Assembly (NCBI RefSeq): GCF_013410565.1
Contig: NZ_JACCFO010000001.1
Span: forward strand, 4,836,001-4,900,000
Reading direction: 5' to 3'
DNA: 64,000 nucleotides
Source: Streptomonospora nanhaiensis
GTDB taxonomy: Bacteria; Actinomycetota; Actinomycetes; Streptosporangiales; Streptosporangiaceae
Part shown: positions 48,296-51,065 of the stretch, piece after piece
Position numbering within the stretch: the stretch's first letter is position 1
Layout: each line of letters opens with the position of its first letter
The notes under the pieces: model-generated
Seen by the model: only the letters and a program-made list of their open reading frames with translations
Told to the model about the DNA's origin: nothing
Database searches by the model: none
Program-made: the position numbers and the translations under genes

Positions 48296-48628
48296 ATGAG
48301 TTCTGAGGACCTGGAGAAGTACGAGGCCGAGATGGAGCTGCAGCTCTATCGCGAGTACCGCGACGTCGTCGGCCTCTTCAGCTACGTGGTCGAGACCGAA
48401 CGCCGGTTCTACCTGACCAACCACGTGGACCTTCAGCCGCGCAGCACCGAGAACGGCGAGATGTACTTCGAGGTCACGATGGAGGACGCCTGGGTGTGGG
48501 ACATGTACCGCCCGGCGCGGTTCGTGCGGAACGTGCGCGTGGTGACCTTCAAGGACGTCAACGTCGAAGAGATCACCAAGTCCGACCTTGAGGTCCCCGC
48601 AGCGGGCAAGCCCGGCTCATCCTCCTGA
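48296..48628 (+). CDS. DUF2469 family protein
   Basis: This 110-residue acidic protein starts MSSEDLEKYEAEMELQLYRE and has FSYVVETERRFYLTNHVDL and WDMYRPARFVRNVRVVTFKD. It is almost invariant among Actinobacteria, in the same place between the signal peptidase region and yraN, and its function is unknown. The gene has its own upstream region of 204 bases and a good terminator after it. Confidence 0.94.
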   Translation: MSSEDLEKYEAEMELQLYREYRDVVGLFSYVVETERRFYLTNHVDLQPRSTENGEMYFEVTMEDAWVWDMYRPARFVRNVRVVTFKDVNVEEITKSDLEVPAAGKPGSSS

Positions 48629-48658
48629 CCCCGGCCCGACCGCACCGGCCCCGAACCC

Positions 48659-48700
48659 CGCCGCCGGACCGGCCCTCACGGGTCGATCCGGCGGCGTTTT
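48659..48700 (+). terminator. Intrinsic terminator after the DUF2469 gene
   Basis: CGCCGCCGGA (48659-48668) pairs with TCCGGCGGCG (48687-48696), directly followed by TTTT. An inner GACC/GGTC pair may extend the structure. Confidence 0.85.
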
Positions 48701-48728
48701 GGTAACGGTACGCCTCGGCGCGCGCAGG

Positions 48729-48757
48729 AAGTCCATCCCCGCGTGTGCGGGGAGCAC
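48729..48757 (-). repeat. Solitary type I-E CRISPR-like repeat (29 bases)
   Basis: Read on the minus strand, 48757-48729 begins GTGCTCCCCGC, has the four-base centre ACAC and continues GCGGGGATGGAC. This is the layout of type I-E repeats: 29 bases, a CCCCGC/GCGGGG stem and an ATGGAC-like end. No second copy lies within 32-33 bases on either side, so it is not an array. No cas gene is nearby. Confidence 0.6.
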
Positions 48758-48908
48758 CCCTATCGAACTGGGTTTTCCGGCGGGCGCTACCGGTTCTGGC
48801 GGCTTCTTCGGAAACGGACATATCGGCGGCGGCCCTCGCGTGCTCGTGATTCGGCCCTCGGCGGCGCGACGGGGCCGCCGGACCGGCGAGGTGTCGGCGG
48901 TGCGGCGC

Positions 48909-49280
48909 TCAGGCCACCGTGCGCACCCGGCCGCCGGTCCGCTCCACGATGGCGGCGGCCAGCCGGTCGCGGACGCGGGTCTGGGCGGCGATCCGCTCGT
49001 CGAGCACGGCCAGCCGCTCCAACGCCACCCGCAGGTTCTTCTCCGAGGGCGGCGCGGAGGTGATGTCGCCGTCCAGGCACGGGAGGAAGACCTGGACGTC
49101 CTCCAGAGTGAGGCCGACCTCCAGCAGGTGGCGGATGTTGCGCACCCGGACGGCGGTGGAGGGGTCGAAGACGCGGTAGCCGTTGGGCGCGCGCTCGGAC
49201 GTGATGAGTCCCGCCGCCTTGTAGTGCCGCAGCGCGCGCGTGCTCGCGCCGGTGGCCTTGGCCAGTTCGCCGATCCGCAT
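48909..49280 (-). CDS. MerR-family transcriptional regulator
   Basis: This 123-residue protein has the MerR winged-helix start MRIGELAKATGASTRALRHY and NGYRVFDPSTAVRVRNIRHL, then a coiled coil (VALERLAVLDERIAAQTRV). The ligand domain is minimal, without a metal-binding Cys motif, so it probably responds to organic or redox signals. It follows the SDR gene by 20 bases on the same strand, so the pair is likely an operon in which MerR controls the reductase. Confidence 0.88.
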   Translation of the reverse strand: MRIGELAKATGASTRALRHYKAAGLITSERAPNGYRVFDPSTAVRVRNIRHLLEVGLTLEDVQVFLPCLDGDITSAPPSEKNLRVALERLAVLDERIAAQTRVRDRLAAAIVERTGGRVRTVA

Positions 49281-49300
49281 CCCGCACCTCCGACCCCGGA

Positions 49301-50077
49301 TTATCCCACCATCGCGCCGCCGTCCACGGGCAGTACCGCGCCGGTGACGAAGGACGCGGCCGGGTCGGCGAGCCGGGTGACGGCCCACGCCACCTCCTCG
49401 GGGCGGCCGATCCGGCCCGCCGGGGTGATGGACACCTGCCATTCGCGCACCTCGGCCTGCTGCTCGGGGGTGAGCCCCTGGTGCTCCCCGATGGGCGTGC
49501 CGCCGATCGCGCCGGGGGCGACGGCGGCGACGCGGACGCCGCGCGGGGCGAGTTCCACCGCCCAGCTGCGGGTGAGCACGTCCAGGGCGCCCTTGCTGGC
49601 CGCGTAGGCGGAGTTCCCGGGCCATCCGCGCTGGCCCACGGCGGTGGAGACGTTGACGACCACCCCGCCCGCCGCCTCCAGCAGCGGCAGCAGCGCCTGG
49701 GTGAGGAGGAAGGGCGCGATGAGGTTGGTCTCGATCACCGGGGCCAGGTCCTTGCGGGTGAAGGAGCCCAGGGCGCCGCTGCGCACGATCGCGGCGTTGT
49801 TGACCAGCACGTCGAGGCGTCCGTGGCGCTCCCGGGCCGCCCGGGCGATCTCGTCGGGGGCGTCGTCGGCGGTGATGTCGGCGGGAAGGGGCGTGATGCG
49901 GTCGCTGCCGGCGGCGGTCTCCTCCAAGGGCTCCCGGCGGCGCCCGATGGCAAGCACGTGGGCGCCTTCGGCGGCGAAGGCCCGCGCGACGGCCCGCCCG
50001 ATCCCGGTCCCGGCTCCGGTGACGGCGACGACTCGGTCCTGCTCCGTGGGCCGCTGAGCGGCGGTTTCGATGTCCAT
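49301..50077 (-). CDS. Short-chain dehydrogenase/reductase
   Basis: The 258-residue enzyme has the NAD(P)-binding motif VAVTGAGTGIGRAVARAF, the NNAA-type motif LDVLVNNAAIV, and the catalytic Tyr and Lys in NSAYAASKGALDV. The C-terminus GAVLPVDGGAM is typical of classical SDRs. The ATG at 50077 is the best-fitting start; the open frame upstream is not SDR-like. The substrate is unknown. It forms a pair with the MerR gene downstream and is divergent from the M23 peptidase gene (286-base gap with no other gene). Confidence 0.9.
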   Translation of the reverse strand: MDIETAAQRPTEQDRVVAVTGAGTGIGRAVARAFAAEGAHVLAIGRRREPLEETAAGSDRITPLPADITADDAPDEIARAARERHGRLDVLVNNAAIVRSGALGSFTRKDLAPVIETNLIAPFLLTQALLPLLEAAGGVVVNVSTAVGQRGWPGNSAYAASKGALDVLTRSWAVELAPRGVRVAAVAPGAIGGTPIGEHQGLTPEQQAEVREWQVSITPAGRIGRPEEVAWAVTRLADPAASFVTGAVLPVDGGAMVG

Positions 50078-50363
50078 GGCGCCATCGTGCGACCTTGACA
50101 CCGGCGGCAAGGTCAAGTCGGCGGCGGATCCGGGTCGGGACGGCCTGCGCGGAGGGAGGCCGACGCGGAACCTGATCGGGGGATCGACGGCCGTGTTCCC
50201 GCAGGTCACCGGGAGCGGATCCCGGTGCGGGCGGCCGGGGATATGGCGTGCGGGTGAGCCTCTGCGGCAGGTAGCCGAGGGCGGCGGGGTCTCCGCGCGG
50301 GGGTTGTCCACAGGGGCGCGGTTGGGCTGGCGGGGCGGTGGCGGCCAGGGCGACGCTGGGGGC

Positions 50364-51065
50364 ATGGGGACAACACTCCAGGTCACATTGCGGCGGGTGG
50401 CGCGAGGGCTCGGCGCGCTCGCCGTCGCCGCACTCGCTGTGCTCGTCGGCGCCGGACCCTTTCCGGGTACCGCGACGGCCGACTCGGGGCCGTGGCGGGT
50501 CCCGCTGGACGGCGAGGTCCGCGTGGTGCGGGCGTTCGACCCTCCGGAACGGCGGTGGTCGCCCGGTCACCGCGGCGTCGACCTCGCGGCCTCGGCCGGC
50601 GACCCGGTGCGGGCGGCGGGAGCGGGGCGGGTCGCGTTCGCCGGAACCGTGGCGGGCACCGGTGCGGTCAGCATCGTCCACGGGCACCTGCGCACCAGCT
50701 ACCTGCCGGTGGAGCCCCGCGTCGAGCAAGGGAGCCGCGTCGAGGCGGGACAGGTGATCGCCGTGGTCGCGGCCGAGCCGCCGCACTGCGGCGGCCGCGC
50801 CTGCCTGCACTGGGGGCTGCGCCGCGGCGGCGACTACCTCGACCCCCTCGCGCTGGTGGGGCGGGCGCAGGTCCGGCTGCTGCCGCTGGGCGCGCCGCCG
50901 CCGACCGCCCGCGCATCGTCCGGCCGACGGCTCAGGCGCGCGGGTGGGCCTGGTTGTAGGTGCTGGTCAGCCGCTCGATCGAGACATGGGTGTAGATCTG
51001 GGTGCTGGACAGCGACGCGTGCCCCAGGATCTCCTGCACGCTGCGCAGGTCGGCGCCGCCGTTGA
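50364..51065 (+). CDS. Secreted M23 family metallopeptidase
   Basis: The 233-residue product has a signal peptide (LGALAVAALAVLVGAGPFPG) and an M23 (LytM-type) domain at about 50-175: HRGVDLAAS with the metal His/Asp, VSIVHGHLRTSY and CLHWGLRRGGDYLDP. It should act on peptidoglycan cross-bridges. The domain ends near 50,890; the last 45 residues are read from DNA that overlaps the end of convergent xerC by 134 bases and look non-functional (GGPGCRCWSAARSRHG). A missed frame or natural read-through is possible. Confidence 0.8.
   Translation: MGTTLQVTLRRVARGLGALAVAALAVLVGAGPFPGTATADSGPWRVPLDGEVRVVRAFDPPERRWSPGHRGVDLAASAGDPVRAAGAGRVAFAGTVAGTGAVSIVHGHLRTSYLPVEPRVEQGSRVEAGQVIAVVAAEPPHCGGRACLHWGLRRGGDYLDPLALVGRAQVRLLPLGAPPPTARASSGRRLRRAGGPGCRCWSAARSRHGCRSGCWTATRAPGSPARCAGRRRR

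Follow-up and report, generated by a model that had tools for sequence, protein, structure and literature searches.

A single type I-E CRISPR repeat beside an array leader in Streptomonospora nanhaiensis, probably the remnant of a collapsed array

The window analyzed here, a stretch of 64,000 nucleotides from Streptomonospora nanhaiensis (contig NZ_JACCFO010000001.1, positions 4,836,001 to 4,900,000), contains a solitary CRISPR-like repeat in the intergenic space between a DUF2469 gene and a minus-strand gene for a MerR-family regulator. The contig that carries it is chromosomal and 6.27 Mb long, and the neighbors of the repeat code for DUF2469, MerR and dehydrogenase proteins. The elements of the locus, in positions of the window, are:

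48296..48628, plus strand: DUF2469 gene (PF10611), a neighbor outside the unit
48659..48696, plus strand: inverted repeat forming a hairpin after DUF2469, followed by TTTT, a putative terminator convergent with the CRISPR unit
48710..48728, minus strand: gap of 19 nt separating the repeat from backbone that S. mangrovi also has, in which a 32-nt spacer would not fit
48729..48757, minus strand: single type I-E repeat, GTGCT-CCCCGC-ACAC-GCGGGG-ATGGACTT, with the last four bases ACTT against the genus-typical TCCC
48758..48866, minus strand: CRISPR leader, with a profile match at 48761-48835 and homology to S. mangrovi array leaders at about 48758-48826; the outer limit, 48866, is the point where similarity to S. 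mangrovi resumes
48909..49280, minus strand: MerR-family regulator gene, a neighbor upstream of the CRISPR leader, co-oriented with the unit

On the plus strand 48729-48757 reads AAGTCCATCCCCGCGTGTGCGGGGAGCAC, and its reverse complement, GTGCTCCCCGCACACGCGGGGATGGACTT, is a 29-base type I-E repeat composed of 5 nt, a 6-bp stem, a 4-nt loop and an 8-nt handle. It is not part of an array of two or more repeats with regular spacers: there is one repeat, and from 48709, 19 nt beyond it, the sequence is again the backbone common to S. mangrovi, which leaves no room for a 32-nt spacer. The DUF2469 protein is 100% identical to its S. mangrovi counterpart. Beyond DUF2469, the stretch 48909-50386 contains the MerR gene and one for a short-chain dehydrogenase; the MerR side is common to S. 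mangrovi, and two other genomes differ in the sequence that follows DUF2469.

In this GC-rich window a loose version of the palindromic core, with up to two mismatches, occurs at chance level (26 found against 32 expected), and there is a single instance of the exact core with ATG directly after it. Across the 6.28-Mb genome a 21-base core with up to three mismatches finds 35 places, as against 1 for the same pattern read backwards as a control, and 22 of the 35 lie in arrays. A weaker, leaderless look-alike lies about 26 kb from the repeat (genome position C1:4911237); leads of this kind come from a search that took palindromic matches on one strand only. Rfam has no match to 48600-48950 up to E 1. 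The first-pass annotation, which had read the element as a lone 29-base type I-E repeat after the DUF2469 terminator, is thus borne out as to length, stem, ends and, apart from the putative role of the hairpin, position. It was also right that no neighbor repeat or cas gene is near: the nearest other place of the 21-base core is about 670 kb away, the I-E cas7 about 1.7 Mb and the I-C cas1 about 190 kb. The two observations that it had named as fatal did not materialize, as the repeats of the genome's own arrays are related to this one rather than clearly different, and copies of the palindrome do not run into the hundreds, as those of an ordinary REP would. It overlooked both the leader beside the repeat and the existence of related loci at other places of this genome.

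The leader was recognized with a profile built from the 80 nt directly upstream of the first repeat in 21 multi-repeat arrays, all of them in five other Streptomonospora genomes and none in S. nanhaiensis itself; these were 21 of 27 multi-repeat loci, six having been dropped by eye because their upstream sequence lay inside an array or was not leader-like. Upstream of the repeat at 48729-48757 the profile scores 15.3 bits, a value matched by 0 of 20,000 random 80-mers of the same genome (the window sequence included among them) and by 0 of 200 base shuffles, and a scan of the window gives 48835-48761 as the sole match above the inclusion threshold. Direct comparison agrees with this: 48733-48826 aligns with the first repeat and leader of a true S. 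mangrovi array (C109:114187-114282) at 79% over 94-96 nt (E 1.2e-15), and with a second array start (C109:117664-117759) at 77%. With the repeat bases removed, the leader still matches the two starts at 75% and 74% over 68 nt. Part of the leader and repeat is also matched by four Streptomyces plasmid records, of which the three examined are array starts (20, 14 and 12 units) after cas2e; the match to the plasmid with the 20-unit array is weaker, 81% over 37 nt. These matches set the orientation, with the leader to the right and the array direction to the left. Judged by sequence comparison, then, 48758 to about 48835 is a CRISPR leader and the unit consists of a leader, one repeat and no spacer.

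The unit is not alone in its genome. Six further intact loci with a leader and a single repeat were found, at 1069976, 2009672, 2781983, 4020859, 6068820 and 6199324. The profile gives 12.8 bits at 2009672, 17.3 at 2781983 and 20.5 at 6068820 (each 0 of 20,000 controls), and 9.8 bits at 4020859 (1 of 20,000). At 1069976 it gives 0.3 bits (97 of 20,000), and this leader was accepted through a leader-only BLAST match of 73% over 79 nt to that of 2009672. For 6199324 the leader-only BLAST match is 85% over 149 nt to the array at 1550 kb, the profile being blind to the leader class common to these two. Background-level scores were obtained at 528622, which is a single repeat with no recognized leader, at the damaged locus 3057928 and at one further locus (L192 at 2668), and the profile recognized no leader upstream of five more single copies in G000-G004 (5820 kb minus strand, L185, L186, L188 and L192 at 8097). 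Larger loci persist as arrays of 12 repeats (4124 kb), 8 (4209 kb) and 4 (1550 kb), alongside a two-repeat locus (4048596), two decayed two-repeat loci (3057928 and 5620331), a damaged single repeat with a leader near 4017.3 kb and a decayed cluster at 5820 kb. The list depends on the search patterns and may be incomplete; repeats were counted with a pattern allowing up to four substitutions, and units with indels at 3057928, 5620331, 4017.3 kb and 5820 kb were added separately, partly by eye. The 8-repeat array (4208991-4209418) contains one spacer twice, resembling an intrinsic terminator (a GC-rich hairpin, then a T run), which to judge from its sequence could stop transcription of the array. 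The leader-proximal first spacer of the 12-repeat array (4124894) is a near-perfect palindrome.

In this genome type I-E Cas3, Cse1, Cse2, Cas7, Cas5 and Cas6, the components for interference, are encoded together at about 3.19 Mb. This operon (3188000-3196200) is without cas1-cas2, neither of which was found in 17 scanned frames of its stretch, and the surrounding 20 kb contain no I-E array, apart from one weak single look-alike. The sole Cas1 found in the genome is of type I-C, at 5.07 Mb, with Cas2, Cas4, Cas7, Cas8c and Cas3; Cas5 had no match in the one frame tested at that locus. Two arrays with slightly different repeats flank cas3, cas8c, cas7, cas4, cas1 and cas2 there (5064000-5083000); the repeat of both differs from the I-E repeat, and no I-E repeat was found near the I-C cas1. 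Among the six Streptomonospora genomes Cas1e passes the cut-off in four (G002-G005, that is four of the five congeners), and it does so neither in S. nanhaiensis nor in G001. A scar of a cas1 deletion at the I-E operon was also sought, and the operons of S. nanhaiensis and S. mangrovi proved too distant for one to be read, with Cas7e only 41% identical between them.

Among the stretches compared, seven CRISPR loci occupy the same place in S. nanhaiensis and its sister species S. mangrovi, with the following repeat numbers (S. nanhaiensis first):

2781983: 1 versus 3
2009672: 1 versus 4, with synteny on the leader side only
3057928: 2 (decayed) versus 3
5620331: 2 (decayed) versus 5
4048596: 2 versus 9
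4017.3 kb: 1 (damaged) versus 2
5820 kb: 4 versus 3, decayed in both

The S. nanhaiensis locus is shorter at six of the seven sites and longer at one (one-sided sign test 8/128), which amounts to a trend rather than proof. The repeat left at 4017.3 kb aligns over its 5' half with the first S. mangrovi repeat and over the remainder with the last, as expected of a collapse. No spacer is common to the orthologous arrays of both species, so that no individual deletion is traced, and three short spacer matches connect non-orthologous loci. None of the S. mangrovi loci compared occupies the place of any of the three longest S. nanhaiensis arrays. At the DUF2469-MerR site itself S. mangrovi has no repeat, its sequence there being 142 nt unrelated to the 157 nt of 48710-48866, and the corresponding locus has no match to the leader profile; in the flanks (up to 2 kb) of DUF2469 loci from other genomes the repeat, with up to two substitutions, was found at 0 of 80. 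A former array at 48729-48757 is therefore argued by analogy with other sites, no related genome showing spacers at this one.

The S. mangrovi genome (G003) contains 17 or more dispersed I-E loci, most of them with 1-10 repeats, with two near-identical leaders 3.5 kb apart, and two of its loci consist of a leader and a single repeat despite the presence of Cas1e. In the stretches examined, the longest arrays have about 10 repeats in S. mangrovi and 12 in S. nanhaiensis (G000), against 67 in G002, 35 in G004 and 48 in G005. The congener G001, a fragmented assembly, has arrays of up to 2 repeats and no Cas7e match. Array lengths across the six genomes are consistent with decay in the absence of Cas1e, six genomes with distant operons being too few to demonstrate the cause.

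The 3' ends of the repeats were also compared. Of 317 non-terminal repeats, 262 end in TCCC and 55 have other last four bases; among 32 terminal repeats the end departs from TCCC in 23. That terminal repeats can have degenerate 3' ends is known from earlier work (PMC2886076; PMC8047081). The end also departs from TCCC in eight of the nine repeats that stand alone behind a leader, seven from S. nanhaiensis and two from S. mangrovi. When each array is represented by its majority non-terminal repeat, the end is TCCC in 22 of 32 and different in 10. The single repeats thus depart from the majority non-terminal repeats (Fisher P 0.005) and not from the terminal ones (P 0.41), values that are indicative only, as the arrays are related and some of the 32 are pieces of split arrays. 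The repeat at 48729-48757 ends in ACTT, which departs from TCCC as do the ends of most terminal repeats and may derive from a former terminal repeat of its own site.

Taken together, these observations suggest that the unit on the minus strand at 48729-48757 is probably a collapsed type I-E CRISPR locus, reduced to its leader and one repeat with no spacer. Of the readings in the first-pass annotation, the relic of an array is supported and an off-target integration by Cas1-Cas2 is not; nothing positive emerged for the third, a decoy or regulatory RNA. The case is built on the I-E leader that adjoins the repeat, the lack of room for a spacer, the related stubs elsewhere in the genome, the longer S. 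mangrovi loci at six of seven shared sites, a 3' end that may be of the terminal type and the failure to find Cas1e. An array once present behind this leader would have lost its spacers through recombination between repeats or slippage, and a final event between the first and the terminal repeat would leave a single repeat with the 3' end of the terminal one. Such a repeat could shrink no further by recombination between repeats and could not be refilled without an I-E Cas1, the loss of which may have contributed to the decay, so that stubs of this kind should persist. If transcribed, the repeat could be cut by the Cas6e of the genome, and the product would carry no foreign spacer. A counterweight is the retention of arrays of 12, 8 and 4 repeats in the same genome.

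Alternatively, the locus could be a founder that was never filled, a leader and repeat unit of roughly 130-160 bp copied to a new intergenic site and never given spacers. The leaders of 2009672 and 6068820 are alike over about 104 nt at 83% with no visible similarity downstream, and in S. mangrovi the counterparts of five single-repeat sites, 48729-48757 among them, are free of repeats as far as they were read; the random-looking last four bases would also be compatible with such an origin. Nevertheless, this appears unlikely: arrays grown from founders of this kind should show odd ends throughout, yet TCCC prevails in most arrays, the shared sites hold longer arrays in S. mangrovi, three of the five repeat-free sites are matched on one side only, and neither a target-site duplication nor a mobile gene was noticed in passing. 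A broader form of the idea, in which leader and repeat units spread chromosome-wide in the Streptomonospora lineage by an undescribed copying or transposition process that seeded loci, some to be filled and others to remain empty, with 48729-48757 as an unfilled seed, is decidedly unlikely.

A functional solitary repeat, whose RNA would engage Cas6e or Cascade as a decoy or in the manner of Racr or CreTA, would be in keeping with the intact stem, the Cas6e gene of the genome and the folding of the minus-strand stretch, which is better than that of shuffles (z -2.8), most of it contributed by the DUF2469 hairpin. It is very unlikely, given that the leader is homologous to true array leaders, that the repeat is absent from S. 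mangrovi and hence not conserved, and that it lies on a chromosomal contig, among ordinary neighbor genes, with no adjoining cas gene. The 32-base flank (48697-48728), which the first-pass annotation had proposed to check as a possible spacer, likewise has no match up to E 1 in 50,697 phage records. A chance GC-rich hairpin or REP-like element is highly improbable: the loose core is no more frequent in the window than chance would give and several single look-alikes in the genus are leaderless, but the excess over the reversed control (35 places to 1, with 22 of the 35 in arrays) and the leader match speak against it, and in place of the many dispersed leaderless copies of a REP, leaders were recognized at seven single copies. 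Off-target integration by Cas1-Cas2, which duplicates its target and inserts a spacer, is extremely improbable in spite of the intergenic position far from cas genes, as there is one repeat and no spacer, Cas1e was not found, and a repeat integrated in this way would not come with a homolog of true array leaders.

Leader and repeat units occur at more than a dozen places in the Streptomonospora lineage. Since array finders that require two repeats would miss loci of this type, the CRISPR history of genomes may be undercounted. The seven intact stubs with no matching Cas1 in S. nanhaiensis offer a natural picture of arrays that can shrink and cannot grow, and, set beside S. mangrovi with its Cas1e and its numerous, mostly short dispersed loci, they make collapse and multiplication testable within one genus. 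In the titles and abstract openings of open-licence papers, a partial coverage, no report of many single-repeat loci in one genome was found, and none of the open-licence papers that mention both Streptomonospora and CRISPR has CRISPR in its title.

Array collapse as such has already been published, and the present case is a new natural example, unusual in the number of stubs. Deecker and Ensminger (2020) described the loss of a whole array through recombination between the first and last repeats, with one repeat of the last type left, and the refilling of a laboratory-depleted array when an active system was present (PMC7056967); a solitary leader-adjacent repeat has also been found to support adaptation (PMC8047081). 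The S. nanhaiensis unit resembles such collapsed arrays in its retained leader, its one repeat with an end that may be of the terminal type and the first-last recombination that would explain it. It differs from the Legionella type I-F array, whose collapse was engineered and which another active system refilled (PMC7056967), in belonging to type I-E and to an actinobacterium, and in being one of seven intact dispersed stubs in a genome with no matching Cas1 for refilling. The Escherichia and Salmonella survey likewise accepted single-repeat loci and noted degenerate 3' ends of terminal repeats, but its loci were four and fixed (PMC2886076), whereas those of S. nanhaiensis lie at many dispersed sites. 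Published accounts of solitary repeat units and Racr anti-CRISPRs describe one repeat with no neighbor repeats or cas genes, as here, but in viruses and plasmids (PMC10651486; PMC8616872), whereas the S. nanhaiensis repeat lies on a chromosomal contig and adjoins a true array leader. The ectopic repeats of CreTA, as outlined in PMC9458426, are comparable as extra-array repeats that could engage Cascade, and differ from the S. nanhaiensis repeat in that no cas gene adjoins the latter.
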